Source: Alteromonadaceae bacterium Bs31
Lineage (GTDB): Bacteria > Pseudomonadota > Gammaproteobacteria > Pseudomonadales > Cellvibrionaceae
Assembly (NCBI GenBank): GCA_900177435.1
Contig: FXAI01000009.1
Location: 1-64,000 of the forward strand
DNA length: 64,000 nt
Direction of reading: 5' to 3'
Shown here one piece after another: positions 1-36,477 of this stretch. The first letter of the stretch is position 1; each line of letters starts with the position of its first letter. The notes beneath the pieces were generated by a model. It saw nothing but the letters and a program-made list of their open reading frames with translations, had not been told where the DNA came from and did no database searches. Position numbers and translations under genes: made by a program.

Positions 1-3000
1 ACAGAATAACTGGGCGCACTCTCAGTGCCGTTGTGCACAAACTTAATATCACCGTCGGTGACTTGTTGTTGAGTAAAGCTGGTCACCACGGAATCATCAC
101 TGACCAACTGGAACGAACCGTTAGTGACCGAGGAGACCGTAAAGATCAGGGTCGGATCACTGTTATCGGAATCCGTTGCGGCAAAATCCAAACCGTCCAA
201 CACCACCGATTGGCCTTCGTTCACGGTCAAACTGTTAGTGGTTAAGCTTGGCGTATCGTCGGTAGCATTGACGGTAATAACCTGGCTAGTCGCAGGATCA
301 TTCAGGCCAGCCTGATCTGCAACAGTGATATCGAATGTTCCTGATGATGCTTCTGAGCCGTCATGAACAAATTTGATTTCTCCGGCATTTATTTGGCCTA
401 GCGTAAATGTCGTTTTTGTCGTGTCGTCACTGACTAGCTGAAATTCACCGTTCGTAATATTGGAGACGGTAAACGACAGGTCGTCACTGTTGTCATCCGG
501 GTCGGTGGCAGAAATGTGAGCGTTGGTGATGACTAATGATAGGCCTTCATCAACTGTAAAACTGGAGTTTCCAAGGCTTGGTGCATCGTTGGTAGCGGTG
601 GCAGGCCCGGCAACATCTGATTCGATAGATTCATGTGTTCCCTGGTCGTCCACATAGCTTGCTACCAGCCTCAGATACTTGCCGTCGTCAGAACCGGCAA
701 TAACGTGGGTGGAGTTGGTTTCTCCGCCAATATCTGACCAATTTTTAATGCCGTCGTTACTTCGTTGCCACTGGTAGCTTACTGTGCCGGAAATGCCATC
801 CGTGTCCGTTGGGCCTGCAGAGCTTAGTGTGTTTCCCTCATTGGTAGTGCCGGAAATTGTGAGGGAGCCTGGCGTGGGGTTATTGTTATCATCGGTATAA
901 GTGAAACTTAAACGACCGATATCCGAATCGCCATCCGCGTCGGTAAGGGTGTAATCAAAATCAAGGTTTGCGGGGCTGTTATCTAAAACGGTAATTGAGT
1001 AAATACGAAAATCGTCATCAACTGCGTTACTCGTATCTCCGGTAAATACTAGGTATTGAAAATCGCCACTTACTTCAACCGTGTGGGTAGAATATACTCT
1101 GGAGTTACTGCCATCTAGAGAGCCAGTAAATGTGCCGGACTGAACCGAGGCCCCTAATGAGTCGTAGGCGGTCCAGACAAGCGTTTCTGAACTGCCGAAG
1201 TTTGTGAGTGTTGTCTGAAATATCCTTGCATCGGCACCGAAATCGATGGCGACGGCCTCGGTCTCTGCGTTGATTGCATCGACATCGCTATCAATGCCGT
1301 TATCGCCAATATGATCATTGCCATCGGAATAGCGTATACCCAAGCCTGACGAGCTAGCATAGAGCTCTGGCAAGGTGTTATTTGGATCTCCAAAGGGCAG
1401 GGCGTCGGCATTTCCGAGATTAAGGGAGCCTGTATCATAGACTATCCCCATGCTGAAACCATAAATGGTGTAGTTGAGTTCATCCCACTCAAAATCACCA
1501 CCAACCCCCACTAATGTGGGTGAATAGGTATATGAGCCGTCTTGGTTGAAGCTAATGGTACCGTTGGTGGTGTCGATACTCAGCTCGCCGTTCACCCAGT
1601 TGCTATATGTAACACTATCGTACTCAATCTGTGACAGCGTAGCAGAGCCCGTGCCCGGCGTATCAGCATTAATACCCGTTCCACCCTCTCCGGTAATCAC
1701 GTTGCCAGAGAGTGTTTCGCCCACATAAAAGCTGGCTGTGTCATCAGTGGCGACGGGTACATCTGATATTTGTATGGTCGTGGCTGAAACAGGAGTTTCT
1801 GCGGTGCCTGCGTCATCGGTGTAGCTGGCTGATACGCGAACGTATTGATCCACATCACTGGCTGAGAGGGTGTAGTTTTGATTGCTGCCAATGCTTGTCC
1901 ATGAGCCTAAGCCGTCGGCACTGCGCTCCCATTGGTATGAAATTCCGCCGGAAATTCCGTCAGCATCGCTGACACTTGCACTGAGGGTTGAATCCTTATT
2001 GGTAGTGCCACTTATGGATATGGAGGCTAAGCTGTTTATGTATCCCGATGCTGCTGAGTAAACATTTTCTGTATTACCTCCATCGTCAGTGAAACTTACA
2101 TTTGCCCTTACATACTTGCCTCCGTCGGCTGCTGTTAGTAAGTAGTCAGCGCTGTTTGCACCAGCGATATTGCTCCAGCTATCGTTTCCGTTATCACTGC
2201 GCTGCCATTGGTAGTTAAAGGTGCTACCGCTAGTGCCATCGCTGTCAGCAGGTGTGGCGGTAAGGGTTTGCCCTTCTGATTCGGTACCGGAGAACGTGAG
2301 TGTAGGAGCATTGTTGCTGTCACTGCGAGTTAGCGTAAGTGTGGCTGTTTGGAGGTCGCCATTGTCAGCATCATTATCGTCAACGGTGTAAGTAAACAGC
2401 TCGGTGGTTACGAAACTGGCATCGTCCGGGTCGTGGTGGTAAGCACTGACTTCCTCTATATACAGCGAGGCGTCGGTACCTATTAGTTTGTCTTCGGGTT
2501 CAATGGAAATATATCTAAAGCTGTCATATCCCAGCAGTGGGTTATCGTAGACAGTTGCGCTAACATTGCCATCTGCGTCCCCGCTTAGGCTACCCGTATC
2601 CACCTCACTAAAGTCTGAAGCAAACAAGGTGTAGTCGAGGTCCTCACCGTTGCCGAAGCTGTTTAAAGCAATGTCTGCACGTGTGTAGTCTGCGCCAAGA
2701 TCTATAACAATAACTTCTGAATTATCGAGCTCGTTGCTACCTGATTCACTATTTCCAAGGCCTGCACTGCTCTGGTTAACGGTAACCGTCGCATTGCCCA
2801 GGTCCAGGTCTGATGAAAGGAAAGCCGTATGGTCATCACCATCGGCGTAACCATAGAGAACATAGCTGTCTTCCCAGTTTCCGTACTCAGCGCTTTCGCT
2901 GACGCCATTGGAAGTGAAAGTGAAACTGCCGTCTCTATCCATTACCAGTGTGCCGTTATAGGCGTTAATGGTAAGTTCATCGCTGACAAAGGTGTTGTGG

Positions 3001-3917
3001 TCCACTCCGTTGTAATTTACGTTGGTTATCTCTGCTGGTGCAGAAACAACGGAGTCTGCGAAGATGCCTGTGCCGCCATCCCCCGTTAATACATTGCCGG
3101 TGATAACTTTTCCATGCCAATAATCTGCGGCGTCGTTGTTGGCGGTTATTGCACCGAGTACTCCGTGCCAGCTTGGTGCGAATAGGGCTTTTGTATCTAT
3201 CTCACCAACTTCACTTTCCAGCTTCCAGTCACCACCGAACTCACTATTTCCGGTTGCATCGTTACTCGCGGCTACGTCGGCTAGCGTGGCCTGAGCAATT
3301 TGCTCCATCAGTTCTAGGCCATTGTCGTTTGCGGCTAAATCACAGCCATATATGAGCAAGTCTGCATTGTCACTCAGCGCAGCTTGCCACTGCTCCATTT
3401 GCTCGCTGTGTTGTTCAATATTGTCGTTATTAAGCCACACTGTGCCGAGTTTAAGCTTGGCATCATCGCCGTGTGAAAGCAGGTGTACGCTTTTAACTCC
3501 AGCATACTGGGCCAGAAACAGAGAGATTTGCTCTAGTCCGTTTCCATTGGCATCCAGCGTGAACACCTGAAATTCGCTGTCTGAATTGCTTTTTATTTCT
3601 TCAATGAGCGCGTCTTTATCTTCCACACTGCTATCAACGAAAATAAGCTCGCCATCAAATTCTTGCCGCTCTGGGCTGGTTAGGGGGGCTTCATCTAGAT
3701 AAGTGTCTTGAGAGTCTTCAACTTCGGAGATTAGAGGAATATCGAAGGCGTCCAGCAGGTCGATGCTCTCGGCCTGTGTAACCAGGTCGTCCACATCCGA
3801 CAAACCATCGTCCAGCAGCACCATATCTGCCGTGGCGGAGAACAACAGCCTGGCCTCCAGGGGCTCGGCGACGATGCGTCGTTTTTTGGTGTGTGGCACT
3901 GGTTTTTTGAGGCGCAT
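1..3917 (-). CDS. Giant LEPR-XLL / DUF4347 repeat surface protein, 5' part (C-terminus beyond window)
   Basis: The frame is open from the ATG at 3917 to base 1, so at least 1305 residues are present. An in-frame TGA lies five codons upstream, which fixes the start. The N-terminus is basic with no hydrophobic signal peptide and carries PLEARLLFSA at residues 19-28, a variant of the LEPR-XLL motif of very large exported proteins. Residues about 90-245 match DUF4347, with LSHGD (His149) and YGCDLA (Cys192). After this come two VCBS-like blocks (about 3160-2900 and 1755-1495), three Ig-like repeats with YQWQRS-type cores (about 2312-2056, 2034-1773, 885-606) and two CSPG/cadherin-like repeats (about 597-262 and 261-1). 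Acidic Asp-rich loops suggest calcium binding. It lies downstream of three adaptor/protease genes on the same strand, which suggests it is their substrate. Adhesin or surface-protein function is inferred; the C-terminus, where a secretion signal might lie, is not visible. Confidence 0.85.
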   Translation of the reverse strand, partial: MRLKKPVPHTKKRRIVAEPLEARLLFSATADMVLLDDGLSDVDDLVTQAESIDLLDAFDIPLISEVEDSQDTYLDEAPLTSPERQEFDGELIFVDSSVEDKDALIEEIKSNSDSEFQVFTLDANGNGLEQISLFLAQYAGVKSVHLLSHGDDAKLKLGTVWLNNDNIEQHSEQMEQWQAALSDNADLLIYGCDLAANDNGLELMEQIAQATLADVAASNDATGNSEFGGDWKLESEVGEIDTKALFAPSWHGVLGAITANNDAADYWHGKVITGNVLTGDGGTGIFADSVVSAPAEITNVNYNGVDHNTFVSDELTINAYNGTLVMDRDGSFTFTSNGVSESAEYGNWEDSYVLYGYADGDDHTAFLSSDLDLGNATVTVNQSSAGLGNSESGSNELDNSEVIVIDLGADYTRADIALNSFGNGEDLDYTLFASDFSEVDTGSLSGDADGNVSATVYDNPLLGYDSFRYISIEPEDKLIGTDASLYIEEVSAYHHDPDDASFVTTELFTYTVDDNDADNGDLQTATLTLTRSDSNNAPTLTFSGTESEGQTLTATPADSDGTSGSTFNYQWQRSDNGNDSWSNIAGANSADYLLTAADGGKYVRANVSFTDDGGNTENVYSAASGYINSLASISISGTTNKDSTLSASVSDADGISGGISYQWERSADGLGSWTSIGSNQNYTLSASDVDQYVRVSASYTDDAGTAETPVSATTIQISDVPVATDDTASFYVGETLSGNVITGEGGTGINADTPGTGSATLSQIEYDSVTYSNWVNGELSIDTTNGTISFNQDGSYTYSPTLVGVGGDFEWDELNYTIYGFSMGIVYDTGSLNLGNADALPFGDPNNTLPELYASSSGLGIRYSDGNDHIGDNGIDSDVDAINAETEAVAIDFGADARIFQTTLTNFGSSETLVWTAYDSLGASVQSGTFTGSLDGSNSRVYSTHTVEVSGDFQYLVFTGDTSNAVDDDFRIYSITVLDNSPANLDFDYTLTDADGDSDIGRLSFTYTDDNNNPTPGSLTISGTTNEGNTLSSAGPTDTDGISGTVSYQWQRSNDGIKNWSDIGGETNSTHVIAGSDDGKYLRLVASYVDDQGTHESIESDVAGPATATNDAPSLGNSSFTVDEGLSLVITNAHISATDPDDNSDDLSFTVSNITNGEFQLVSDDTTKTTFTLGQINAGEIKFVHDGSEASSGTFDITVADQAGLNDPATSQVITVNATDDTPSLTTNSLTVNEGQSVVLDGLDFAATDSDNSDPTLIFTVSSVTNGSFQLVSDDSVVTSFTQQQVTDGDIKFVHNGTESAPSYS

Positions 3918-4151
3918 TAAGCAAACTCTTCAATAAGGCTGAATGTATTGCTCCATGCAATAACCGGTTTTATAGACTGCCGCTAGATGCTAATGCGTTC
4001 TGTCGGCATTTTCTACTCCAGGTTTTGCCAAAACTGTGACAAAAGTATTAGAAATTAACTCACTTTTAATTGTTGCGCATATTTCAACAAGCTTCCATGC
4101 GTTTCCACCCATTATCGCAAAAGGTTCTGGATAAACTGCTGTTAGCTCGAG

Positions 4152-4988
4152 TTAGTTATCTAAAAGACCGGTTTGACTGGCCACATCGGGGAAAGCGACC
4201 TTACATTTGAGACCGCTGGGCAGGTCCAGGCGAGGATTGGGGATTGAAAGGTTGATTCCGAAGGTGTTGCTGGGTGCGTCGATGACTTTATCCACTTCTT
4301 CGACGCGGGCATTGTAATGTTTACGAACGATCAGCAGTTCAGGTGTTACCACCGCGTTCATGCCGATTTTGATCTTGCCGTACAAGTGAGCAGGAGCAAA
4401 GACTTCCACCTTGAGCGGGTCGAGCTGCGCTATCTGCACAATGGGTTCGAAGTAAATGTGTTCGCCGGGTTCTTTGTAGCGCTCCGTCACTACTCCTTCG
4501 ATGGGGCTTAACACTGTTCTGCGCTCCAGGTCGGCTTGCGCGCGCTTATACTCCATTACTGCCTGTCGCTGCCGGTCTTTAGCCTGCTGCAGTTGCTGAG
4601 CTGCAAGCTCGTGCTCGGTTTTGGATTTGTCCAGCTCGGCAAAGGATGCTGCTTTTTTGTCGTAGAGGCCTTTTACTCGCTTTAGGTTGCGAGTGGCGAA
4701 CTCGTAGGCGAGTTCTTGTGCGTCAACATCACTTTCAAGCTCGGCCTGAAGCTGGCGCAGATCTACTGTTGCCGCCTCGAGGCTGGCTTCAAGTTTGGCG
4801 AGTACCTGGCCGACTTCTACGGAAGCATTCTTGCTGACCATTACTTCGCTGACAACGCCCTCTGCGGAACTACTCACATCAACTCTTACGTGAGGTTCAA
4901 TTCTGCAGTTTAGTTCAACGGGGTCGCCTGCTTGAACAGCCACACAGATTGGTAAAACAGCAAGCGCTACACCCAGAGTTTTAAGCAT
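4152..4988 (-). CDS. Periplasmic adaptor (HlyD/RND membrane-fusion protein family)
   Basis: This 278-residue protein starts with a cleavable-looking signal peptide (MLKTLGVALAV...VQAG). I chose the ATG at 4988; an upstream ATG at 5021 would put 11 extra residues before the signal. Two lipoyl-like half motifs (AEGVVSEVMV near the N-terminus and SPIEGVVTERY in the middle) flank a helical coiled-coil rich in Gln, Lys and Glu. A beta-barrel-like C-terminal region follows. This is the layout of adaptors that bridge an inner-membrane exporter and an outer-membrane channel. It is short for the family, and no pump gene adjoins it. It lies between the M50 gene and the giant repeat protein on the same strand, so a role in exporting that protein is inferred. 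Confidence 0.85.
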   Translation of the reverse strand: MLKTLGVALAVLPICVAVQAGDPVELNCRIEPHVRVDVSSSAEGVVSEVMVSKNASVEVGQVLAKLEASLEAATVDLRQLQAELESDVDAQELAYEFATRNLKRVKGLYDKKAASFAELDKSKTEHELAAQQLQQAKDRQRQAVMEYKRAQADLERRTVLSPIEGVVTERYKEPGEHIYFEPIVQIAQLDPLKVEVFAPAHLYGKIKIGMNAVVTPELLIVRKHYNARVEEVDKVIDAPSNTFGINLSIPNPRLDLPSGLKCKVAFPDVASQTGLLDN

Positions 4989-5175
4989 GTGTATTATTGT
5001 AAATTCTCGGTAAACATCCACATCAACTATAGATCACAAATTACGTGGCCGCACAGAGGGCAATTGTTCGCTCTTGCCTGCTGCCAGCTAATGGTGCGTT
5101 TCACGCCTAAGCTAAGCGCCCTTTATTATGTCGCGCGAATTATTACAGAGAAATGGGAAGTTTGCAGCGCTATTC

Positions 5176-7353
5176 TCAAATATTAAGCCCCGGCTGTTCA
5201 CCTTGTCTCATAATATTGATTACAAGCTGCTGTATAAGGCGTTTTATTTTTGCGGCAAGTGACTCTGGTTTGTGGCTGAAGCTCACATACACCTTGTGTC
5301 CAAATTGTTGAGCGTCTAATTGTTGTATGGATTCAATATCTATTATAAAAACCCGCTCCGTGGTGCGAGTGTAATTCTGTTCTTTCCCGTCTATTTGTAT
5401 GCGCCCTCCACCGCTTGTACCTAAAGCTTGGCTGGGCAGGGTATAAGTGCCACCAGGTACTTGGTGGCTAATCTGTCCGGTAAAACTGCGTTGCGGCTGG
5501 CTGGCAAGGCGAAACTGAATGTCTGTTAAGTTTGATCGTAGAAAGCCAATTTCTTCCTGTTTTAGCACGGCGCGTATATGGGGTGGATTCTCGTTCAGCA
5601 GCAGGCCAATGGTGTCTCCCTCTTTTATAAAGCTGCCTTCCAGCTGGTGGTTTTCCAGTTGTTTGAACCGGCCGGATGAAGGGCTGCGCACAATGAGATT
5701 ATTTACCTGTTCTTGCAGATAGCTAATTTCCAGCTCAATAGCGGCAATATCCTGTTCAAATAACTGTATTTGAGAGCGATCAAGAGACCAGGCTTGCTCG
5801 TAACGGGATTTGTACTCTTTGAGAATGGCCTGTTTCTCCAAGAGCTGGGCAGTGGTGTCTATGTTGGATAGGAATAATAGTGGATCGCCATCGCTAACTT
5901 CGCCGCCGTTTTTAACCGTGCTTTTTTCAACCGTGCCTGAGGCGAGCGCGCGAATGCGAGAGGATTCCGGTAGCCAGACAACGCCTTCTGCAAATGTGCG
6001 GTGAGGTATGGGTACGTACAGCGCTGCAAGCACAACCAAAACGAAGCTAAAAAAAGAAATTGCGATTGCGCGCTTGCGGCGTTTGGCCAGCTCGTCGCTG
6101 GCTAATAAATACATTAAATATTTACCTAAGGGCAACGCGAATTGAAATATTGCCATCCACACTAAAAACATCAGCCCCAACATAGGGAAGTTGCGAGCAA
6201 TAATTAAAACGATGCTCAACAAGATAAATAAACGATAGACGAATGCAGCAATGCCATAGGCACCCAGGCCAAAACCTTCTTTCCAGGATTGGGTAACAGG
6301 GTAGCTGTCTTTTAAGCCGTAGAGGTAACGCTTGGTGAAGTAGCGAATTTGATGAATGGAGCGCGCCGCCAGGTTAGGTTGCTCGGCAGCATCGCAGAGA
6401 ATGTGGTAGCCATCAAAGCGCATTAAAGGGTTGCCGTTGAAAAACAGTGTGGAAATACTCCCTATGAGTATTATGTTAAACAATATGCTCCGATAGACAC
6501 CGTCCTCAGCTTGCAGCCACAATATGAGCGCGATTGCAGCGAAAAATAACTCCACCGCCATACCTGCGCAGCCCACCATTAAACGCTGTTTTTTGCTGGA
6601 AAATCCCGTTGCGGCTGTAGCGTCTACGTAGGGAAAGGGCGTGCCTAAAATCACAACTACACCGAATTCATGAACATGGCCTCCCCATACCGTAGTGAAT
6701 AGCCCGTGGCCCAGTTCATGAAAGGCCTTAAGCACCGGGTAGGTTAGCCAGAGTAAAAATAGATTTTGTGGTGAAAGAATGTCGGTAAGCTGAGTAGCGG
6801 AAATCTCCGACCAGTTGCTGGCAGCCAGAAATAGGGCGTAAGCCACAGCAAGCAACCACACTATAGCCATAAATGGAGAGGCGAGCAGCAGAGCAAGGGG
6901 CTTGAGTGCTTGCAAAAAACGGTTGGGATTAAATAGAGTAACTTTCCAGGCGTAAGGGCTTTTAATCAACTGGTGCCAGAACTGCTGTTGTTTTTGTTGC
7001 CTGCGTTCAAATAATTTGGAGGCTTGCGGGGGGAAATCGCAAATCATTAGGTCTGCCACGTAAAGGTATTGCAGCAGGTCAATTAAGTCTTCTTGTGTGG
7101 GTATGTCGTCAAGTGTTTGATTCAGTGCTGCCTGAGAGGCGCTGCCAAGAATCTGTTCAAGGTTGTTGTTGCCGTTCATAAAGCCCAGCAACTGATAGGC
7201 GAGGGTGTTAAAGCGATGAAAGCGGCTGTTGGCTTTGTCTTCCAGTATGTACCATAACTCGCCATTGTAATGGCGTGGCTGAATCTCCACATGGCGAGGC
7301 AAGGAGGGTTTCATTATTACCAGTTGTTGCCATAAGTTCGAGTTACCAGGCAC
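5176..7353 (-). CDS. M50 (site-2 protease family) membrane protein with N-terminal PqqD-like and C-terminal HlyD-like domains
   Basis: The protein has 725 residues. Residues about 25-105 resemble the small winged-helix PqqD/RRE fold (a FHRFNTLAYQLL core followed by an acidic helix and LLQYLYVADL). Several membrane segments follow between about 150 and 450. They carry HELGH at 212-216, the M50 zinc and catalytic motif, and NPLMRFDGYH at 308-317, whose Asp314 fits the third zinc ligand. Residues about 455-700 form a periplasmic arm with lipoyl-like halves (ASGTVEKSTV, VRSPSSGRF) and a coiled-coil. PqqD-like domains bind peptide leaders and M50 enzymes cut near or within membranes. The fusion therefore suggests recognition and processing of an exported partner, but this is inference. 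The gene ends 10 bp downstream of the GAF-HlyD gene, consistent with an operon. Start at ATG 7353; an internal Met at residue 14 is an alternative. Confidence 0.88.
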   Translation of the reverse strand: MPGNSNLWQQLVIMKPSLPRHVEIQPRHYNGELWYILEDKANSRFHRFNTLAYQLLGFMNGNNNLEQILGSASQAALNQTLDDIPTQEDLIDLLQYLYVADLMICDFPPQASKLFERRQQKQQQFWHQLIKSPYAWKVTLFNPNRFLQALKPLALLLASPFMAIVWLLAVAYALFLAASNWSEISATQLTDILSPQNLFLLWLTYPVLKAFHELGHGLFTTVWGGHVHEFGVVVILGTPFPYVDATAATGFSSKKQRLMVGCAGMAVELFFAAIALILWLQAEDGVYRSILFNIILIGSISTLFFNGNPLMRFDGYHILCDAAEQPNLAARSIHQIRYFTKRYLYGLKDSYPVTQSWKEGFGLGAYGIAAFVYRLFILLSIVLIIARNFPMLGLMFLVWMAIFQFALPLGKYLMYLLASDELAKRRKRAIAISFFSFVLVVLAALYVPIPHRTFAEGVVWLPESSRIRALASGTVEKSTVKNGGEVSDGDPLLFLSNIDTTAQLLEKQAILKEYKSRYEQAWSLDRSQIQLFEQDIAAIELEISYLQEQVNNLIVRSPSSGRFKQLENHQLEGSFIKEGDTIGLLLNENPPHIRAVLKQEEIGFLRSNLTDIQFRLASQPQRSFTGQISHQVPGGTYTLPSQALGTSGGGRIQIDGKEQNYTRTTERVFIIDIESIQQLDAQQFGHKVYVSFSHKPESLAAKIKRLIQQLVINIMRQGEQPGLNI

Positions 7354-7362
7354 GTGCCGCTC

Positions 7363-9165
7363 CTATATCCACAACGCTAAGCGCAACCAGTGCCAAATGT
7401 CATGGAACCATATCCACCCGAGTGCACGCCTGTTGATGTAGATCTTTGCGGTGCCCGACATGCCTGGGCGCAATGTGTCTGGTGTGGCAGTGAGGTTCGC
7501 AAACACCTGGAAATAGTTTCTTCCATTTCTTACTTCGCTTAATGGTGTGATGCGCTCGATTCTAATTTCGAGTTTTTCTCCAGGTAAACTTTTTAAGTTT
7601 AACAGGCCAGTTTGCTGTGCCTTCAGGAAGTCGATATTTCGTTCGTCTACATAAAGAGAAATTTGATAGGCGGAGCTGTCTGCGATCTCAAACAAAATAT
7701 CCCCTTGTTGTACCGGGGCCCCCAGGGACTGGCTTATATCTTCCGAAACAATAATCCCCGAGATGGGGGACTTTAAGTGAACGCGTTCCAGCTTTTGCTC
7801 CACCAATCGCAAAGATATTTTACTTTGTTCGACTTGTGCATTGAGAATTGCAGCTTGTGCGCGGTTTCCATTGGCGAGAGCATTGTCGTATTCCAGTCGG
7901 TATTGTTGCAGCTGGCTGGAAAGCTTTCGTCGCTCCAGGTTCAGCTCTTCATCCTTCAATTTTGCCAGCAGTTGATCTTGTTTAACGGTGTCGCCGGGTC
8001 TGGCATGAATGGCGCCTAAGAAACCTTCATAGGGAGAAACCAAAAGATGTTTATTGGTGCTTTCAACGGTGGCGTTGTTGGAAACATAAAAATCACCCGG
8101 TATAAACAGCAGGACGATAAAAATCGCGCAGCAGGCGAAAAATACTTTTTCTATTGGGTGTTGGGTGCCAAAAATACGCTCGCTTGCCTTGGCGAGTTTT
8201 CTGCGAAGTATGCTCCTTATGCTCTGCTGACTTTCTTTTTTTAGCTGGAATATACTTGCTAGCGGTTTTTTGCTTTTTTCAATAAATGTACTGGTAGCGG
8301 TATTTAAATTATCTACTTTTGCGTTTTCTATTGTAATGACACCTACTAGGTTTCCTTCAGTGGTCAGCACAAGACTGTGGCAGCTTTTTAACTGGTGGCT
8401 ATCTAATAATATTTGATGGTTTCTCAGTATTGTCGCGTTGTCGTTTTCGGCTTTATCGTTTTTGCTCAGGTGAATATCTTTTTTTTGTGTTAGTGCCTCT
8501 TGCATCGCGTTTTGAATGTTTTGCATCGGCAAGGTACGTTCATCAAAATTGGCCGAAAAAGAGACGGCATAAAGAGGGAGCTCGTTGCCTTTGGTCAGGC
8601 TAATACTTACGCGGTCGAGGTTAAAGTGAGAAGCGAGGAAGTTAGCGATAGCAATTGTACTTTCATCCAGAGATTTCTCACGTAGCGCCGTAGAGAGCAG
8701 GTTCAGTTCTTGTGTTGGGCTGTTATTGCTTTCTACAGTGGCAAGGGATGAGTGAGCTTTGCTGTCTTCGAGAGCGCGTTGAATGTAAGTATCGTATTCA
8801 AAAAGAATAAACTGCAGCCAGGTTAGCCCCCAATCCAGCAACTTGATGACGGCTTTCATGGTGGTGCTGTCGTAGCGGCTGAGGTGAATTACCAGAACCC
8901 CCCAAAAATGATCGCGAATTTTAATCGGATACGCGAGATACACTGTTCCATCTTGGGTTTTGCACATCTGCATGCGTCTTTTTTCAATAACATCCCGCGC
9001 TGTTTGCACTGCGGTATTGTCTGTTGCTGCAGATTCAGGCCAGAGCGCGAGCACTTTTGCGCTTTTTTCTGATTCAGATTGCACCAGCAGGCCGAGAGAG
9101 CAGTCATGAATCATCTGGCATTGCATATGCAGCCAGTGTTTGAGCAAGGGTTTGAGTGCGTGCAT
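7363..9165 (-). CDS. GAF-domain HlyD-like adaptor protein
   Basis: The protein has 600 residues. Two GAF-like segments precede the membrane: residues about 5-130 (strand GVLVIHLSRYD) and about 150-295 (strand GVITIENAK). A single transmembrane helix lies near 340-358. The periplasmic part has lipoyl-like halves (YEGFLGAIHARPGDTV and LKSPISGIIVSE) around a coiled-coil of about 405-465, then a beta-barrel domain containing LRPGMSGTAKIYI. A cytoplasmic GAF pair on an adaptor is unusual and could sense a ligand or dock a partner; no ligand can be named from the sequence. It is the first gene of the minus-strand set, 10 bp before the M50 gene. The C-terminus is Trp-rich and hydrophobic and may touch the membrane again. 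Confidence 0.87.
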   Translation of the reverse strand: MHALKPLLKHWLHMQCQMIHDCSLGLLVQSESEKSAKVLALWPESAATDNTAVQTARDVIEKRRMQMCKTQDGTVYLAYPIKIRDHFWGVLVIHLSRYDSTTMKAVIKLLDWGLTWLQFILFEYDTYIQRALEDSKAHSSLATVESNNSPTQELNLLSTALREKSLDESTIAIANFLASHFNLDRVSISLTKGNELPLYAVSFSANFDERTLPMQNIQNAMQEALTQKKDIHLSKNDKAENDNATILRNHQILLDSHQLKSCHSLVLTTEGNLVGVITIENAKVDNLNTATSTFIEKSKKPLASIFQLKKESQQSIRSILRRKLAKASERIFGTQHPIEKVFFACCAIFIVLLFIPGDFYVSNNATVESTNKHLLVSPYEGFLGAIHARPGDTVKQDQLLAKLKDEELNLERRKLSSQLQQYRLEYDNALANGNRAQAAILNAQVEQSKISLRLVEQKLERVHLKSPISGIIVSEDISQSLGAPVQQGDILFEIADSSAYQISLYVDERNIDFLKAQQTGLLNLKSLPGEKLEIRIERITPLSEVRNGRNYFQVFANLTATPDTLRPGMSGTAKIYINRRALGWIWFHDIWHWLRLALWI

Positions 9166-26896: not shown

Positions 26897-27742
26897 ATGC
26901 AGAGCTCTAACGCCCTTTACATTGTGGCAACACCCATCGGTAACCTGGAGGATATTACCTTCCGGGCCGTAAAGGTGTTGCAGAAGGCAGACATTATAGC
27001 CGCTGAAGACACTCGGCACAGCGCCAAATTGTTACAGCATTTTGGCATTGAAACGCGTTTGATGGCATACCATGATCACAGTAATGAGCAACAAACGCAG
27101 CAATTGCTCCAGCGCCTGGGCAAAGGGGAAAATATAGCCCTTATTTCCGATGCTGGAACGCCACTTATCTCTGATCCGGGCTATCGGCTGGTGAAGGCCG
27201 CTCGGGAGCAAGGCTACTCGGTAGTGCCTATTCCAGGCTGCAGTGCACTTGTTGCCGCCCTCAGCGCAGCGGGGCTACCCAGTGACCGTTTTTCTTTTGA
27301 AGGTTTCTTGCCTGCTAAAAGCGTTGCTCGTATGAATCGTCTTGAAGCGCTGCAAAAAGACCCACGCACCCTGATCTTTTATGAATCCCCCCATCGTATT
27401 CGAGAATCTGTGGAGGCCATGACCCAGGTATTTGGCGAGGCGCGAAATGTAGTGCTCGCCAGAGAAATCACTAAAACCTATGAAACTTTTATTACTACAA
27501 GTTTCGCCAATTTACTGGAAGCCTTTGATAGCGATCAGAATCAATTGCGAGGAGAGATGGTGATCCTGGTTCAGGGTTTCGACGAGCCGAAGGGTAATGA
27601 TGAAAGCCTGGACTGCGATACAGAAAAAATGATGAAGCTTTTAATGGAGGAGCTACCGCTAAAAAAAGCAGCAGCTATTGCAGCCAAAATGAGTGGTGTC
27701 GCCAAAAACCGACTGTATCAGTGGGGTCTTGAGGCAAAGTAA
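26897..27742 (+). CDS. rsmI: 16S rRNA (cytidine1402-2'-O)-methyltransferase
   Basis: The 281-residue SAM-dependent tetrapyrrole-methylase-fold enzyme has TPIGNLEDIT, AAEDTRHSAKLL, SDAGTPLISDPG and PGCSALVAALSAAGLP, all diagnostic of RsmI. It methylates the 2'-OH of C1402 in the ribosomal decoding centre. It is divergent from lpoA, an arrangement kept across gammaproteobacteria. Confidence 0.97.
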   Translation: MQSSNALYIVATPIGNLEDITFRAVKVLQKADIIAAEDTRHSAKLLQHFGIETRLMAYHDHSNEQQTQQLLQRLGKGENIALISDAGTPLISDPGYRLVKAAREQGYSVVPIPGCSALVAALSAAGLPSDRFSFEGFLPAKSVARMNRLEALQKDPRTLIFYESPHRIRESVEAMTQVFGEARNVVLAREITKTYETFITTSFANLLEAFDSDQNQLRGEMVILVQGFDEPKGNDESLDCDTEKMMKLLMEELPLKKAAAIAAKMSGVAKNRLYQWGLEAK

Positions 27743-27768
27743 GTGCTGCTTACCACGGTGCGTGTCTG

Positions 27769-28905
27769 CTATAGGGAGCTCCATGCTTTAAAAGCCGGGC
27801 TAGCCAAGAAACCTTCCATACCTTCCACGTCTGACAGCAGTGCAAAATCAAGCTCTGTTCCAAAGTCGTCTCTCAGTACATCCAGCACTAGCGTCGCGTC
27901 TTTGTAGCGGTTTTGGCTGGCCAGAATCATAAGTGTTGTATAGTAGGGTAACTCATCTTCTGGGTATTTCTCTAAAATTCGGGCAAGTAATTTGCGCGAT
28001 TTTTTTTGTTCTCCCATGTTATGCAGAGTATCGGCTTCCATGATCTGCGTTTGTGCATCTCCACCAATACGCTTGTTAAAGGTCTGGATGGCCTGCAGCG
28101 CTAACGGGTAGTTTCCAGATGTATAGTAGTAGCTATATTTGGCAAATGAAAACTGTTCTTTCTTAGAACGGGGAATTATTCGCTTAACCGCTTCAGCGTA
28201 AAGTGCCGGATTATTATGGGTAGAGCATATCCCGAGTAACATTTTCTGAATTATTTCACTGTTTTGTTCTTCCTTGGGGAGCCGGTCATAAATGGCAAGG
28301 ATATCTGCTTCCGGGTTTTGTGCAGCCATTATCAAGGGGTTCTGTTCTTTTTTTGCTATCGAGGACCTCATGACAATACCTGCTACCTCGCCAATAGCCT
28401 CTGACATCCAGACCTCTTTGCTGTGCGAAAACGAGCCGATAATGCGCCAGTTACCCTGTTCTTTTTTAATGGCAAAGTCCATGTAATCTATGTAGTCACC
28501 AATCTCAGCCCTAAATAGCAGTGTTTCTGTTTTTTGCTTTTTTCGGTAGCTTACAAAATGCCAGCTATCGATAGTGCTAAAATTACCCTTGATACGGTCG
28601 GGTATGTTCTTTCGAATTGGCTGAAGAAGGGCGGGTAAAATTGGACCGGAAGCAAACGTTTCTCTGTCGGTTTTGTTTAGCTCGGACAGCAGCCTTAACG
28701 ATATTCGTTCAATCTGCGCGTTTATATCGAAGACATTAAAAAAGTAGTTAAGGTCGCCGTTGTTTAAGTGGTCTTGCAGGGCGAGTGCAAATGACTGAAC
28801 CTCAAGGGGGGCGGCTTTGTGTTTGAATTTTTCGTCTGGTGGCGGCAGAGTAAAGCAGTTTGCAGAAAAGCATAAAGTGCATATAAATATTAATAAACGT
28901 TTCAT
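27769..28905 (-). CDS. Secreted hypothetical protein, helical-repeat (TPR-like) C-terminal half
   Basis: I do not recognise a specific family. The 378-residue product has a clear signal peptide (about 1-19). Its middle part, up to about 165, has alternating strands (WHFVSYRKKQ, WRIIGSFSH), and its C-terminal half has repeated helix pairs like TPR units (YYYTSGNYPLALQAI, ADTLHNMGEQKKSRKLL, LMILASQNRYKDATLVL). It starts 2 bp after the stop of the transglutaminase-like gene, so the two are probably co-translated and may act together in the periplasm. Confidence 0.75.
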   Translation of the reverse strand: MKRLLIFICTLCFSANCFTLPPPDEKFKHKAAPLEVQSFALALQDHLNNGDLNYFFNVFDINAQIERISLRLLSELNKTDRETFASGPILPALLQPIRKNIPDRIKGNFSTIDSWHFVSYRKKQKTETLLFRAEIGDYIDYMDFAIKKEQGNWRIIGSFSHSKEVWMSEAIGEVAGIVMRSSIAKKEQNPLIMAAQNPEADILAIYDRLPKEEQNSEIIQKMLLGICSTHNNPALYAEAVKRIIPRSKKEQFSFAKYSYYYTSGNYPLALQAIQTFNKRIGGDAQTQIMEADTLHNMGEQKKSRKLLARILEKYPEDELPYYTTLMILASQNRYKDATLVLDVLRDDFGTELDFALLSDVEGMEGFLASPAFKAWSSL

Positions 28906-31069: not shown

Positions 31070-34000
31070 TCACGGCTGCTTTGTGCTTTCACTTTCCCCT
31101 TCTGATTGCGTGGTGCTTTCCGGGGGCGTTGAGTCCCAGGTGTAAGTGAGGTCGATGGTGTCTGTTTCACCGGAGCCTGCTTCCATCTTTAAGCGCTGGG
31201 TAAGTTGGTATTCAATAACAAAGCGACCCACAGCACCCACCAGGCCGTACTGATACTTTACAAATAGCTTGTCGTTTAAGCGTTTACCGGCGGCGATGGA
31301 GCCTCCCCCTCCGGCAGGTCCGGCTTCGACTGATATGTCGCTTAAACCAAATTGGCTGCCTATTTTTTGCAGCGCCGGTAAAGCCTGTCTCAGGCCCATA
31401 GCCAAGGCGGCGGCTTCCATATGACTGGACTCGCTGCTGTTGCTTTGACTCATTGGGCGCCCGGTGATCATGTAAGAAAGAATATCGGCTTCACTCATGC
31501 TAGGTGTGGAATACAGGCTGCTTTCAGGCCTTCGGGCGGTGCCGTGGAGCCATATGCCCGCGCTTACGCTATCTATGCGGCGTGCGGCTCGCACATCCAA
31601 AGCCGGGTTGTTAACGGGCCCGGAAAAATAGATTTGGCCGTTTTCAATTTCGAGTGTTTGACCGTAGGCTTTGAACTCACCTTCGGGCAAGCTCAACCCC
31701 CCCTGTAATTGGTTAACTCGGCTGTTATCTCGCGTGAAATGTACCCTGCCTTCAATATCAGTACTGAGGCCAAAGCCTTCAAAACGAATATTTTCTGCGG
31801 CAACAAGTTGTACATCACTTGTGAAAGAAAAGGGCGATTGCCGCTGTTCTGTTATGCCGTAAACATGTGAATCTTCTGATACTCGTATGGCTGAGGCGGG
31901 CAGCTCAACCAGTTTGAGGTAAGAGTCTGAAACACGAAGATTACCGGCTAAATGCCATAGCAGGCCGTTCCCTGTAAGGTTTAAATTCGGGCTGGCGGTA
32001 AGGCGTGTATCGGGTAAGTTTACCAGGGATAGTTTTTCTCCTTTTATCATTGCCTCTACAGCGAATGGTGGCTTACCCTGGCTGCGCTCTGTTTCCGTTG
32101 TAGCGGTAACGCTGCCGTTTATTGTTGCTTCTCCTTTACCAATATTGCCACTACCGCTAAGGGAAATGTTGTTTTTCGTAGCATCGATACCAAGTGACCA
32201 GTTGGCTACTTCTGTACCGTAAGCTGGAATGAGCAACGAAAACTTATCCAACTTGATGGAGCCTACCACTAGTGCTTTGGGTTCCTTAATGTTCTGCAGG
32301 TATTGAATATTCGCACGAAGCCTGCCGTCGAGAGACTGTATGCTTGGAAAAAATGCCTGGAAGTATTTAAGTTTGTCGAGTTCGCCATACAGTTTTACGG
32401 CTATATTGCGCTCGGCGCTCTGCCATTTTTTTATATGCCCGTTTAGCGCAAAACTCTGCTCATTGTCGAAAAGTATTTTACCTGTAGGCTTAAGGTCATT
32501 TTCGTCCCCGCTCAGATTCAGCCATAGCTCGTTAAACTGAAAGTCTTCAATAAGTTCGGAATTTGTATCCCGGTATTGAAAGGCCAGCCCCTCTGCTGCC
32601 ACTCGAGAACTAAGCGCTAGCTGTTCGACTTTTGTAAAGTCGGCAGCGAGTGAACCTTGTGCAAGCAATTCTGCATGCAATTCGCCTTTAACCGTCCAGT
32701 CTTCAGGTAGTTGCTCCTGCAATTGTGTAAATACGGTTTTCTCATTATCCAGATATACACCGCCCAGTTTTGCCTCCAACTCAAAGCGGGTCTTTTCATT
32801 GAGCGATAAATTATTGATGCAAAGGTAGGCCAGCGCTTGTTTGAGGCATAGGTCTTTTAGCTGATTTTTTTCAAGAGATAGCTCTAAGGGTGCTGGTGAC
32901 TCTAGAGCAACAGCAGTATTCGATAAAGCTGGTATTTGGAAAGACAGGTCTGCAAGCTCTCCCTTCCAGTTACTACTGCTCCAATCAATACGCTTTGCTT
33001 GGGGTTTTATGTCCAGGCCGCCTGTGAGCGCCAAGGTTTCCAGTCTGACCCCTGCTTGCTGCAGGTTTCCACTTAGATAAAATGCGTGGTTTTTCAGGTC
33101 ACCGCTCAGGTTCAGGCTAAGCTGCTCGACTTTATACTCGCCCCATAAAGCTTCTTCTGCCTGAAGGTTTAACGTGGTGATACGCAGCGAATCTGCCAAT
33201 TGGTATGCTGTAGTTGTATCTGAGCTAACTTGTGTTGCGTCTATATCAACTTTGAAAGAGAGGTTCTGGGAGGAAAAGTAGGGGCTCGAGAATTCCTTCG
33301 AGTGTATATACAGATCTGCATTAGGAGATGTGGCTCTGCCATCGAGCTTGACAGTTGCTTCAAGGCTGCCTTTCGAATTTGGGAATATGTTTTCTGACTT
33401 GCTTATAATAAAGTCTAAATTTGTTAATAGAGTTTGGTCTTGGAAGCTATAGCTTCCGTCTAAATTCAATTTAGCGCTTTCATTTTGGAGTGTTAACTTA
33501 TCTACCTGTAAATTCGAGTTGTCTATTTTAACAAGCACGTCTCCACTAAGCGGTTGTTTTCCTAGTGTGAGTCCCTGAATCTTTGTTTGTATATTTGCTG
33601 AATAATTGTTGTCGTTAAACGCTGCTTTAATATGGCTGGTAAAGCTAATTTTACTTTGATTTAGTTTTTCTGGTAGCCATTCTGCAAGGGATATCTCGCT
33701 TGCCTTAGCTTGCACCTCGAGGTTCAGCTTATCTGACCAGTTGAGTTCTCCGCTAAGACTTAAAGCACCATTATTCATAGGCGCTGTAATATCTTGAATG
33801 CTGAGTTTCTTGTTTTTAAAGTCAAGGCTGGTGCTACTCGATATATTCAAGTCTTTGTGCTGGTAGTTTAAGCGGTTCTCACCCTCTGCCGAAAGTTTTA
33901 AGTCATCATATGACAGTGTAAACTTGCCGCTTGGGATGCCTAGCTCACCAGTGATGTGATGTGAAAAATGCGCCCACTGCAATTCCGCGTCACAGCTTAG

Positions 34001-34672
34001 CTGACCTTGCTCATTACAGTGTCCGTTTAAGGATATGCTCCCGTGAGATGTTTCTTTAAGCTTGAACGCTAGTCGGGTGCCGAATTCGAATTGGGCTTCT
34101 CCTTTATAGTGTTCATCCTGGTAGTCGATCGCCAGCGCTTTTAAATGTAATAAATTTCCATTCACCTGCAGGGCAAGCTCTATATCCGGCAATTTACTGC
34201 TCTGCTCACTATTGCTCCAGATTTTGCCCTCTGTGAAGCTAAGCCTGTTCACGGTTATATCCACAGGGCTATGGAACCGGGGTAATTTTATGGCAGAGTC
34301 TGTCTCACTCTTTGGGCTGCTTAAATGTATGTTTACGCCCTGGCCCTCAAGTTGGCTAACAGAAACATGTTGGCTCAATAGAGCCGCTGGGCTCCAAGCA
34401 AAGCGTAGTTCGCTTGCACTAATACGGCTAAAACCCAAATCGATTTCTTTTGCTTTGATCTCAAGGCTGTTTATCGCCAGCCCTTGCCAGAGGTTACCCC
34501 TCAATTTCTGATAGCTAATACTGACGGGGATGTAGGGCTCAGCCATAGCCAAAGCCCAGCCGGCACCGGCGCGGGTGCCGAGCAGCCAAAATACAAAGCT
34601 GCTGGTAAGTAGCCCGAAAAATAGCATGCCCATGAACAACCATCGGCCCGCTTTTGCTATCCGCATGAGCAT
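31070..34672 (-). CDS. tamB: Translocation and assembly module subunit TamB
   Basis: This 1200-residue protein has an N-terminal signal-anchor (about 12-32), a very long beta-helical AsmA/TamB-type middle, and the conserved C-terminal TamB domain (DUF490) with SEADILSYMITGRP and GKRLNDKLFVKYQYGL. TamB spans the periplasm and, with TamA, helps assemble outer-membrane proteins or move phospholipids. Its ATG overlaps the tamA stop by one base (TAATG), indicating translational coupling. Low GC in parts of the middle is usual for such repeat proteins. Confidence 0.95.
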   Translation of the reverse strand: MLMRIAKAGRWLFMGMLFFGLLTSSFVFWLLGTRAGAGWALAMAEPYIPVSISYQKLRGNLWQGLAINSLEIKAKEIDLGFSRISASELRFAWSPAALLSQHVSVSQLEGQGVNIHLSSPKSETDSAIKLPRFHSPVDITVNRLSFTEGKIWSNSEQSSKLPDIELALQVNGNLLHLKALAIDYQDEHYKGEAQFEFGTRLAFKLKETSHGSISLNGHCNEQGQLSCDAELQWAHFSHHITGELGIPSGKFTLSYDDLKLSAEGENRLNYQHKDLNISSSTSLDFKNKKLSIQDITAPMNNGALSLSGELNWSDKLNLEVQAKASEISLAEWLPEKLNQSKISFTSHIKAAFNDNNYSANIQTKIQGLTLGKQPLSGDVLVKIDNSNLQVDKLTLQNESAKLNLDGSYSFQDQTLLTNLDFIISKSENIFPNSKGSLEATVKLDGRATSPNADLYIHSKEFSSPYFSSQNLSFKVDIDATQVSSDTTTAYQLADSLRITTLNLQAEEALWGEYKVEQLSLNLSGDLKNHAFYLSGNLQQAGVRLETLALTGGLDIKPQAKRIDWSSSNWKGELADLSFQIPALSNTAVALESPAPLELSLEKNQLKDLCLKQALAYLCINNLSLNEKTRFELEAKLGGVYLDNEKTVFTQLQEQLPEDWTVKGELHAELLAQGSLAADFTKVEQLALSSRVAAEGLAFQYRDTNSELIEDFQFNELWLNLSGDENDLKPTGKILFDNEQSFALNGHIKKWQSAERNIAVKLYGELDKLKYFQAFFPSIQSLDGRLRANIQYLQNIKEPKALVVGSIKLDKFSLLIPAYGTEVANWSLGIDATKNNISLSGSGNIGKGEATINGSVTATTETERSQGKPPFAVEAMIKGEKLSLVNLPDTRLTASPNLNLTGNGLLWHLAGNLRVSDSYLKLVELPASAIRVSEDSHVYGITEQRQSPFSFTSDVQLVAAENIRFEGFGLSTDIEGRVHFTRDNSRVNQLQGGLSLPEGEFKAYGQTLEIENGQIYFSGPVNNPALDVRAARRIDSVSAGIWLHGTARRPESSLYSTPSMSEADILSYMITGRPMSQSNSSESSHMEAAALAMGLRQALPALQKIGSQFGLSDISVEAGPAGGGGSIAAGKRLNDKLFVKYQYGLVGAVGRFVIEYQLTQRLKMEAGSGETDTIDLTYTWDSTPPESTTQSEGESESTKQP

Positions 34673-36411
34673 TACAAGTCAGCTCCCACAGAAAGGTGAA
34701 TGCGATAATCGTTTTCACTTTGTTGTGGAAAGGCGATATCCAGCCGTAAGGCTCCTACTGGAGAATACCATCGAGCGCCCACTCCCCAGGAGGTCTTCAG
34801 CTCTGGCTCAGTATCGAATGCGTCACCGGCATCATAGAATGTAGATACGGACCAGCTTTTGAAAAGCAAATAATCAAGCTCTGCACTGCCGACGGCTAGC
34901 TTACCACCACCAATGACTTCGCCGTTTTCGTTTACTGTACCCACAGAATTATATTCATAGCCGCGAATACTGTTGTCACCACCAGTAAAGAAACGTACTG
35001 ACGGGGGAAGATCGGTGAAGTCGTCCATTAAGGTGCCGGCAATTTCAAAACGTGAAATCAGGCGCAGTTTTTTTGTGGGGGCAATTACAAATTTACTCCG
35101 TGTGTAGCCCTGCAGATAATCAATATCCGATTTCCAGTGGTTGTGGCTTGCAGTTAGGCCAGCCTCAAAGCGCAGACCGCGATTTTGTCTGGCCGTTTCG
35201 TCGGCACTGGACCAACTGAAACCGATACCCGGAATAACCAGGGTTTTATTATCTATAGGTGCATCACCAATGACATAGCGCTCGTTAAATATATTTAGGC
35301 CAACATTCATTACCCAGTCATGGGGCATGGCCGTAATGATACGTGCGGTAGTTGATTTGTTTGTGGTTGAGTAGCTTGTGGTCTCTTCCTCCCTGTACCC
35401 TGCGCCGAACTCAAGCCATTCGTTAGCCGCATCTCTGCGAGGCATTCTGTAAAGACCAGAAAGTTGTCTCAGTCGCTGGGACCAAAGTGCAAATGCGCCG
35501 AAGTTGTGTCCTGCGGTGTTAAGGTAGCGGTTGCGGTAGTCGCCGCGAATACGTGTTCCCTGGTCTGTGGAGTATCCTACACCAGCACCAAAGCTGTGGC
35601 GGTTGTTAAGGGCAAGATCTACTTGCAGGGGGACAACCAGGTCTGTCTTGTCATCGGAAACTAGGGGCGTTACCAGTACCTGTCGAAAATAGTCACTGCC
35701 TTGCAAACGACTGTAGGTTTCCTGGACATCTTCGCTTGAGTAGTACTTTCCTTTAACTGGCTCCGCCAAGCGATGCAAGAGGCTTTCGTCAAAATAAATT
35801 TCAGGAAATTCATAGGCGCCAAATCTATAGCGAGGCCCAAGATATAAATGTAGATAAACATCCGCAGCGAGCTCTTCGGGGTAAATTGCCAATGTGGATT
35901 TAGTGAACGTTGCTTGCCAGTAACCCAGGGCTCTGGCTGTGTCCATCAAGGCTGTTTTGTAGTTATCATAAAGTTGATGATTCAATTGCAAATTGCGAGT
36001 AAATCGCGGTGCAGCAAAAAGCTCTTGCAGGGCGAGGGGCATATTTTCGGGCTCGTCTTCGATTTTAATGTCCACATTGCGAAACATCACCGCCGAGCCC
36101 GGAGTAATATTTAAGTTTAATAACCAGCACTTTTCATTTTGACTGAATTGATGACTTATTTCTGGTTGATAGTGGCCGAAGGCTTGAAGTGCGGCTTTAA
36201 CTTGTTTGTCCAAATCCCTCCTGCGTTGCTGTACCCTCCAGCCAGGTGCATCACAGCTTTCTTGATTGAGAGTGAGGTGGGCACGCACGTTTTCAAGCAG
36301 TGGAGATTCGACACCCGTTATTTTAACTTCGCCGAAAACCTTAGGGGCAGCCAGATAGAAAACTGCGAAAATAGTCAGTAGTTTTGTAGAGGATTTGAGT
36401 CGAGGTGCCAT
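34672..36411 (-). CDS. tamA: Translocation and assembly module subunit TamA (Omp85 family)
   Basis: The 579-residue Omp85 protein has a signal peptide (MAPRLKSSTK...VFG), three POTRA domains (about 25-260) and a 16-strand barrel containing the family signatures FFTGGDNSIRGYEY and GVGARWYSPVGALRLDIAFP. The last residue is Leu rather than the more common Phe. I chose the ATG at 36411 for the clean signal peptide; an upstream ATG at 36459 adds 16 residues. It follows ubiB and overlaps tamB. Confidence 0.93.
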   Translation of the reverse strand: MAPRLKSSTKLLTIFAVFYLAAPKVFGEVKITGVESPLLENVRAHLTLNQESCDAPGWRVQQRRRDLDKQVKAALQAFGHYQPEISHQFSQNEKCWLLNLNITPGSAVMFRNVDIKIEDEPENMPLALQELFAAPRFTRNLQLNHQLYDNYKTALMDTARALGYWQATFTKSTLAIYPEELAADVYLHLYLGPRYRFGAYEFPEIYFDESLLHRLAEPVKGKYYSSEDVQETYSRLQGSDYFRQVLVTPLVSDDKTDLVVPLQVDLALNNRHSFGAGVGYSTDQGTRIRGDYRNRYLNTAGHNFGAFALWSQRLRQLSGLYRMPRRDAANEWLEFGAGYREEETTSYSTTNKSTTARIITAMPHDWVMNVGLNIFNERYVIGDAPIDNKTLVIPGIGFSWSSADETARQNRGLRFEAGLTASHNHWKSDIDYLQGYTRSKFVIAPTKKLRLISRFEIAGTLMDDFTDLPPSVRFFTGGDNSIRGYEYNSVGTVNENGEVIGGGKLAVGSAELDYLLFKSWSVSTFYDAGDAFDTEPELKTSWGVGARWYSPVGALRLDIAFPQQSENDYRIHLSVGADL

Positions 36412-36477
36412 TGAGTGCGCATCAAGGAGCTGACTTATCCATTTAACTCCGCAGGTCATGGCAGGAAGTCAACGCTC

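Follow-up and report, generated by a model that had tools for sequence, protein, structure and literature searches.

Gene content of the locus

We analysed a window of 64,000 nucleotides from Alteromonadaceae bacterium Bs31 (contig FXAI01000009.1, assembly GCA_900177435.1, positions 1-64,000), and in particular an operon at its start, which encodes a giant protein with an N-terminal LEPR-XLL-type motif and three HlyD-bearing proteins that are candidate components of its exporter. Below, genomes, contigs and loci are denoted by G, C and L with a number. The genome of the window (G000) has 5.0 Mb in 46 contigs. The window is taken from contig C19, beginning with its first base; thus the gene of the giant is truncated.

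The list of open reading frames (ORFs) and the domain scans show four genes, all on the minus strand: a GAF-HlyD adaptor, a PqqD-like/M50/HlyD fusion (the M50 protein), a further adaptor, HlyD3, and the LEPR/DUF4347 giant (Table 1). This agrees with the gene set and domain make-up given by an earlier reading of the window made from the letters alone (the sequence-only reading). The first two genes are indeed closely spaced, at a distance of 9 bp as measured from the ORF ends and not 10 bp as had been reported. Also in agreement with that reading, no ATP-binding cassette (ABC) transporter, resistance-nodulation-division pump or OEP-family outer membrane protein was found among the 24 window proteins scanned, of 64 ORFs of at least 120 aa. 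In particular, these 24 proteins include no ABC transporter encoded together with the adaptors, the feature by which type I secretion is recognized.

The membrane part of the M50 protein matches the M50 models of the daptide and YydH/LiaK families (NF041824, NF058609), with scores under the curated cut-offs, and the Pfam profile Peptidase_M50 (PF02163) yields 15.4 bits, under the gathering cut-off of 27.2. Positions H212, E213, H216, N306, N308, P309, L310, D314 and Y316 are invariant in 30/30 aligned relatives. The N-terminal part has a weak profile match to the solved PqqD structure 3g2b (E 0.0059, positions 11-96), and its AlphaFold (AF2) model has the order of elements of a winged helix, bbb-aaa. 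The HlyD arms are similar to those of the MacA/MexA/EmrA adaptors. The N-terminus of HlyD3 is signal-peptide-like according to its hydropathy; in most giants the N-terminus has a lower hydropathy than the signal peptides of HlyD3, although the ranges overlap.

In the giant, Pfam identifies DUF4347 (PF14252; 168.6 bits, gathering cut-off 24.6) and cadherin-like repeats. The LEPR motif is visible in the alignment of giants (A4), where R23 is invariant and E18, L20 and E21 are nearly so. The NCBIfam profile LEPR-XLL (NF012209) reports neither the window giant nor any other protein of its genome at E<=0.1; three close relatives of the giant score 11.1-12.4 bits (cut-off 17), and the one in G016 has no match. 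Thus the LEPR-XLL-like N-terminus of the sequence-only reading stands as a motif, in a divergent form below the profile cut-off. The putative catalytic pair of DUF4347, H149 and C192, is invariant in 24/24 sequences, the glycine following the histidine being replaced by serine in L170. DUF4347 is predicted to be a caspase-like cysteine protease with the conserved His/Cys pair of clan CD. A search of PDB sequences with A4 produced weak matches only, including one DUF4347 chain at E 0.023.

Table 1. Genes and protein features of the operon (window coordinates)
Feature	Coordinates	Strand	Basis and remarks
GAF-HlyD adaptor, 600 aa: GAF part, one predicted transmembrane segment near residue 341, HlyD arm	7363-9165	-	ORF call, domain scan, hydropathy
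PqqD-like / M50 intramembrane protease-like / HlyD fusion, 725 aa, six hydrophobic peaks	5176-7353	-	ORF, domain, alignment, model
PqqD-like winged-helix part of the M50 protein, approx. residues 15-100, candidate signal reader	7054-7311	-	
HExxH metal site of the M50 protein (H212, E213, H216)	6706-6720	-	alignment
Second M50 motif NGNPLxRFDxY (N306-Y316, including D314)	6406-6438	-	alignment
HlyD3 adaptor, 289 aa, Sec-type signal peptide; likely true start ATG 4988	4152-5021	-	
Giant LEPR/DUF4347/cadherin-repeat protein, N-terminal 1305 aa, open at contig end	3-3917	-	C-terminus on G000:C17, ends at base 3580
LEPR-type motif EPLEARLLFSA, residues 18-28 of the giant	3834-3866	-	alignment A4
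DUF4347 domain, predicted caspase-like fold	3174-3647	-	H149, 3471-3473; C192, 3342-3344

Conservation of the operon and the SecA paralog

Of the other 37 genomes examined, 8 contain near full-length relatives of the M50 protein, in nine places altogether. The order GAF-HlyD, M50-HlyD, HlyD3, giant, PAS-GGDEF is kept in G006, G007 (two copies), G008 (same family as the window's genome), G011 and G016, the last having a GGDEF-EAL protein as the sensor gene; it is kept in the genome of the window as well, where it is spread over two contigs. In G006 and in one of the G007 copies the repeated order extends to genes resembling fumarate reductase by eye. In G018, G021 and G027 a SecA paralog of 668-721 aa is placed between the M50 and HlyD3 genes, and these are the only genomes among the 38 with a strong SecA_DEAD match in addition to the housekeeping copy.

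When GTDB species genomes were scanned for the M50 alignment, at least 592 pattern matches were obtained (at least 586 confirmed). The best 80 loci come mostly from Proteobacteria, with others from Nitrospirota, Rokubacteria, Omnitrophota, Desulfobacterota and Planctomycetota. Counted on either strand up to 5 kb from the M50 gene, and with numbers lowered by contig ends, these loci contain GAF-HlyD in 73/80 cases, a SecA paralog in 65/80, HlyD3 in 57/80, a DUF3467 protein in 22/80 and a TolC-type protein in 11/80. An ORF flagged by the LEPR motif pattern, not by the profile, occurs in 18 of the 80, in 15 cases downstream on the same strand; 11 of these 15 contain DUF4347, those of L103, L111 and L116 do not, and that of L073 is too short. 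Pfam assigned eight of the eight tested TolC candidates, seven of them from the best 80 loci, to OEP. In G360, a member of a more remote M50 clade, the M50 gene and the gene of an anchored giant (see below) are separated by an OEP gene, and a GGDEF gene follows the giant. The gene order is kept across divergent M50 clades. Hence a TolC-like gene, which the sequence-only reading proposed to look for, is present near the operon in some relatives. Its set of three HlyD-bearing adaptors is real, and the SecA paralog, found in most relatives' operons, could not be seen from the window alone.

Clear SecA paralogs were counted in 80 genomes (55 with the M50 gene, 25 without it), excluding fragments and weak partial matches. 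They were observed in 23 of the 55 M50-containing genomes. Of 25 paralogs, 21 lie less than 1 kb from an M50 gene, three are non-adjacent in M50-containing genomes, and one is in a genome lacking M50. The SecA-less operons do not form a single clean clade: on the M50 tree (FastTree only, with long branches) the label is scattered, requiring 7 changes if loci cut by contig ends are omitted and 11 if they are included. Thus loss or gain of the paralog probably happened more than once.

Two further families were observed near these operons. A protein of approximately 100 aa from the DUF3467 family, Pfam-confirmed in one case, often precedes GAF-HlyD in SecA-type operons (e.g. L109, L144, L149). 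SapC-like genes (PF07277, one Pfam-confirmed) occur near the operon in ten loci from Alphaproteobacteria, e.g. L128 7372-8121.

The sequence-only reading took the system for a candidate undescribed one, and here it was mistaken, as such a locus was already published in 2015. According to the main text of Kamneva, Poudel and Ward (PMC4452313), a secondary SecA_DEAD protein, GAF/HlyD, Peptidase_M50/HlyD and HlyD form a conserved locus, for which the SecA paralog was proposed as the ATPase and the M50 protein as the membrane pore, the broader role being "completely unknown"; the same main text contains no match for LEPR or giant. The window operon shares with it the three HlyD-bearing proteins and the lack of an ABC transporter, and in relatives an OEP gene is sometimes nearby. 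It differs by the missing SecA paralog and by the addition of an anchored giant and a linked sensor. As there is no secondary SecA_DEAD, the operon is a variant and not a full member of that locus. In two papers that mention LEPR-XLL, the passages naming the motif give no export route and no tie to the SecA/M50/HlyD locus, and a literature search of titles and abstracts (no bioRxiv, few subscription papers) did not find the cargo link. Thus the locus itself is already published, and its link to LEPR cargo is the new element.

Co-occurrence of LEPR proteins and the M50 protein

In a class sample of 369 genomes drawn evenly, the M50 profile (E<=1e-30; at most three candidates scored per genome, so that further copies may be missed) found M50 in 55 genomes, and NF012209 (E<=1e-3) found LEPR in 28 (57 at E<=0.1). 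Both are present in 26 of the 28 LEPR genomes, with 4.2 expected (p=2e-22, related genomes being treated as independent); eight alternative pairs of thresholds gave p from 2e-26 to 3e-20. The 26 double positives cover 19 family codes. At E<=0.01, LEPR occurs in 30/55 genomes with M50 and in 4/314 without it. Wherever the two were listed on one contig (LEPR E<=0.1), they were on the same strand (23/23 pairs). At this threshold there are fourteen LEPR matches within 10 kb on the downstream side of M50, none of them on the opposite strand; eight satisfy E<=1e-3. Among 48 named genomes chosen for the M50 gene, 43 contain a LEPR protein above the cut-off; these genomes come from 50 of the best 80 loci, and some had already shown a LEPR ORF.

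As a control, the type I ABC profile TIGR03375 (E<=1e-200) was found in 62/369 genomes, including 8/28 LEPR genomes against 4.7 expected (p=0.077). A tie of LEPR proteins to type I ABC transporters instead of M50 was rejected, the association being weak. The co-occurrence with M50-HlyD proposed as a check by the sequence-only reading is thus strongly positive.

LEPR-XLL marks very long bacterial frames. The longest one in the searched genomes, of 14,112 aa, is in G277:C84, and LEPR-bearing open frames of 13,848 and 13,738 aa are in G090:C1 and G439:C78. Of 20 LEPR N-termini, mostly from very long frames, the motif was re-read by script in 17, and two of these 17 have DUF4347. Eleven LEPR matches were observed in a single genome, G447 (Phycisphaerae, L141), which suggests one exporter for many cargos.

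The C-terminus of the giant and the adjacent sensor

The missing part of the giant was located with a C-terminal profile (A2) built from related giants and searched against the genome of the window. It has one match, C17:2777-3574. Contig C17 starts within the repeats of the giant, includes an N run and carries the C-terminus. Six bases after the giant a 530-aa ORF with PAS and GGDEF domains opens, its likely ATG being further inside; close relatives of its product have two hydrophobic segments. It is followed by opposite-strand genes resembling fumarate reductase by eye. No standard ABC exporter was seen on C17, where the giant ends, in agreement with the sequence-only reading. On the other hand, the TolC-like gene which that reading proposed to look for past the contig end is not next door; the position adjoining the giant is occupied by the PAS-GGDEF gene.

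Near the end of the six window-type giants there is a hydrophobic segment WxxRAxS...P.W...DPLPV, in which W, R, A, S and DPLP are invariant (6/6), followed by a tail of 40-66 residues. We call it a candidate anchor. Among 101 loci the anchor profile matches nine beyond the six sequences used to build it, and DUF4347 profile ORFs are present in 27/101 (those of L100 and L155 are identical). The complete DUF4347 ORFs in this set are anchored in L113, L161 and L170 and unanchored in L162; others are cut or N-broken. The window-kind giants mostly combine LEPR, DUF4347 and a predicted C-terminal inner-membrane anchor. Conversely, the giant of L158 has the anchor and no DUF4347 match, and giants upstream of SecA-type operons have other C-termini, several of them RTX or HExxH-type tails. 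Since the anchor is also found with SecA operons (L092, L170), anchor and SecA-lessness are not one trait.

The anchor is not a property of every DUF4347 giant, this being ruled out by L162 (G199), a complete giant of 2016 aa with no anchor and no sensor match. In this region (L162 9690-17278) the giant is encoded directly after M50 and is followed by a 504-aa gene whose product resembles a TolC-type lipoprotein by eye. In L165 (3193-12487) the giant is split into three same-strand ORFs of 2295, 286 and 517 aa with 4-base overlaps, and the anchor is on a separate ORF following an N run. The first ORF ends just past a short N run, hence that break is probably an assembly gap.

Thirteen distinct anchored giants, that of L092 not being among them, were assessed for neighbours: those of the window genome, G006, G007 (two), G008, G011, G016, L113, L156/L157, L158, L161, L165 and L170. 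A relative of the membrane PAS sensor is beside the operon in 13/13 cases. In nine it is directly downstream of the giant and contains GGDEF. In L158 (15303-19597) and L165 (251-3196) the downstream sensor has histidine kinase, receiver and Hpt domains replacing GGDEF, and in L158 a receiver-GGDEF-EAL gene is next. The sensor gene is between HlyD3 and the giant in L156, and divergent at the head of the operon in L170. As a control, over the 101 loci a match including the membrane part of the sensor was found in seven, every one an anchored-giant contig, and nowhere else in the set. Among the genomes examined earlier, the sensor is present in G027 at a SecA-type locus without an adjoining giant.

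The type I ABC gene of the window's genome is on another contig (C41, 10970-13054), beside an OEP gene and a gene for a large protein, whose N-terminus resembles, by eye, what we take to be a LapA-type retention module. In this region (G000:C41:1-14827), a 473-aa ORF occupies the adaptor position beside the type I ABC and OEP genes.

Possible mechanism and alternative explanations

The conservation of the operon, its linkage with SecA and TolC-type genes and the co-occurrence data are consistent with the following interpretation, to which we assign a probability of roughly 0.6. The operon would be a SecA-less variant of the GAF-HlyD/M50-HlyD/SecA-paralog/HlyD module, with LEPR-XLL giants as its cargo, and the module would form a non-ABC tripartite exporter, here wired to cyclic di-GMP (c-di-GMP).

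Several observations weigh against it. No secondary SecA_DEAD was found in the genome of the window, where the matches are the housekeeping SecA (C40) and a weak one of 204 bases in a 724-aa ORF. Only two OEP proteins were found there, both on C41 (one at 27069-28460) and unlinked to the operon. The motif of the window giant is itself a divergent LEPR form, hence this genome was scored as a NF012209 miss. In the class sample, G113 and G250 have LEPR without an M50 match, the best exception being a 7373-aa LEPR frame in G250:C57, a genome with a type I ABC gene. Of the M50-containing genomes, 29/55 lack LEPR at E<=1e-3, some having divergent motifs and some belonging to the distant M50 clade, and 5/48 named genomes have no LEPR match, although two of the loci (L092, L115) hold a divergent LEPR-type ORF. 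Finally, the sampled genomes are related, so that the p value overstates their independence.

One could suppose that the export of LEPR giants is the task of an ordinary type I ABC system whose genes lie elsewhere, the M50 operon having a role only in their processing or regulation. The C41 gene cluster and G250 speak for such a model. However, the C41 transporter adjoins a large protein of its own, LEPR and type I ABC occur together in just 8 of 28 genomes, and the hydrophobic segment and tail at the end of the six window-type giants are unlike the free C-terminal signal of type I cargo. We consider this explanation quite unlikely. Alternatively, export itself might proceed via plain Sec, and the M50 protein, as an intramembrane protease, might cleave the C-terminal anchor so that the giant is set free in response to the sensor, in a LapG-like manner. 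Indeed, M50 enzymes cleave inside membranes, the anchor segment is conserved, and all assessed anchored giants have the sensor gene nearby. On the other hand, the M50 site is just as invariant where the neighbouring giants have no anchor, which argues that the shared job of M50 is not the anchor, and most LEPR N-termini fall below the Sec signal peptides of HlyD3 in hydrophobicity, albeit with overlap. This model is unlikely too, in our opinion. The similarity of the HlyD arms to MacA/MexA/EmrA, adaptors mostly of small-molecule pumps, could mean that an efflux-type adaptor operon stands beside a large adhesin gene by coincidence or for regulatory reasons. This is very improbable given the co-occurrence in 26 of 28 genomes, the uniform strand of the 14 downstream LEPR matches and the gene order retained across divergent M50 clades.

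Under the cargo interpretation, the LEPR N-terminus would serve as an address label, probably read at the cytoplasmic side by the PqqD-like domain of the M50 protein, as the sequence-only reading also proposed. Together with GAF-HlyD and HlyD3, the M50 protein would form an inner-membrane and periplasmic adaptor that docks on a TolC-type channel and takes the place of the ABC part in a type I system. The motor may be the SecA paralog in most lineages; for the window's genome, housekeeping SecA is the default guess. The giant would exit N-terminus first, and in the window kind the C-terminal hydrophobic segment would stop the transfer and anchor the protein in the inner membrane beside the PAS-GGDEF sensor with its two transmembrane segments. 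The label is probably cleaved by M50, and DUF4347 is probably a self-processing cysteine protease.

More tentatively, and with appreciably lower confidence, LEPR giants may be exported by tripartite secretion systems that form a widespread class of their own, with a SecA-type motor, an M50/PqqD gate and no ABC transporter. The window-kind giant could then span the envelope as a tether, with the C-terminus in the inner membrane and the N-terminus displayed outside; the neighbouring sensor would read its state of contact or processing and turn it into a c-di-GMP or phosphorelay signal.

Comparison with known systems

The proposed system shares HlyD adaptors, a TolC-type exit, huge repeat proteins and a c-di-GMP link with type I secretion of adhesins (HlyB/HlyD/TolC; LapBCE-LapA). 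The differences are the absence of an ABC transporter from the window operon, a proposed N-terminal and not C-terminal label, and the candidate C-terminal anchor in the inner membrane. In LapA/LapD/LapG control, the LapD-type inner-membrane receptor carries an EAL domain, whereas the sensor of the window's genome is PAS-GGDEF without EAL. If the giant is indeed anchored beside a c-di-GMP enzyme, this would be a second, independently built coupling of adhesin attachment to signalling, besides LapA/LapD.

The combination of a PqqD-like winged helix and an M50 membrane protease is common to the operon and to systems for ribosomally synthesized and post-translationally modified peptides, where leaders are handled by PqqD-like domains with M50 proteases (daptide and YydH/LiaK families). 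The M50 protein considered here differs by an extra HlyD arm, and the cargo proposed for it is a giant protein where those systems have a peptide.

DUF4347 is described in passages of two papers as part of Tce1 (PA0256), a putative cysteine protease effector of the type VI secretion system (PMC13323088, PMC8262886; PDB 9qpe). In the window it sits behind a putative export label in a giant repeat protein, and this position makes autoprocessing likelier than a role as an injected effector.

The SecA/M50/HlyD locus was published without a cargo; joining it to the LEPR giants makes both the cargo of the locus and the export of the giants testable questions.

Elsewhere in the window, approximately 22 kb from the operon, there are genes for TamB and TamA, involved in outer-membrane assembly (31070-36459).

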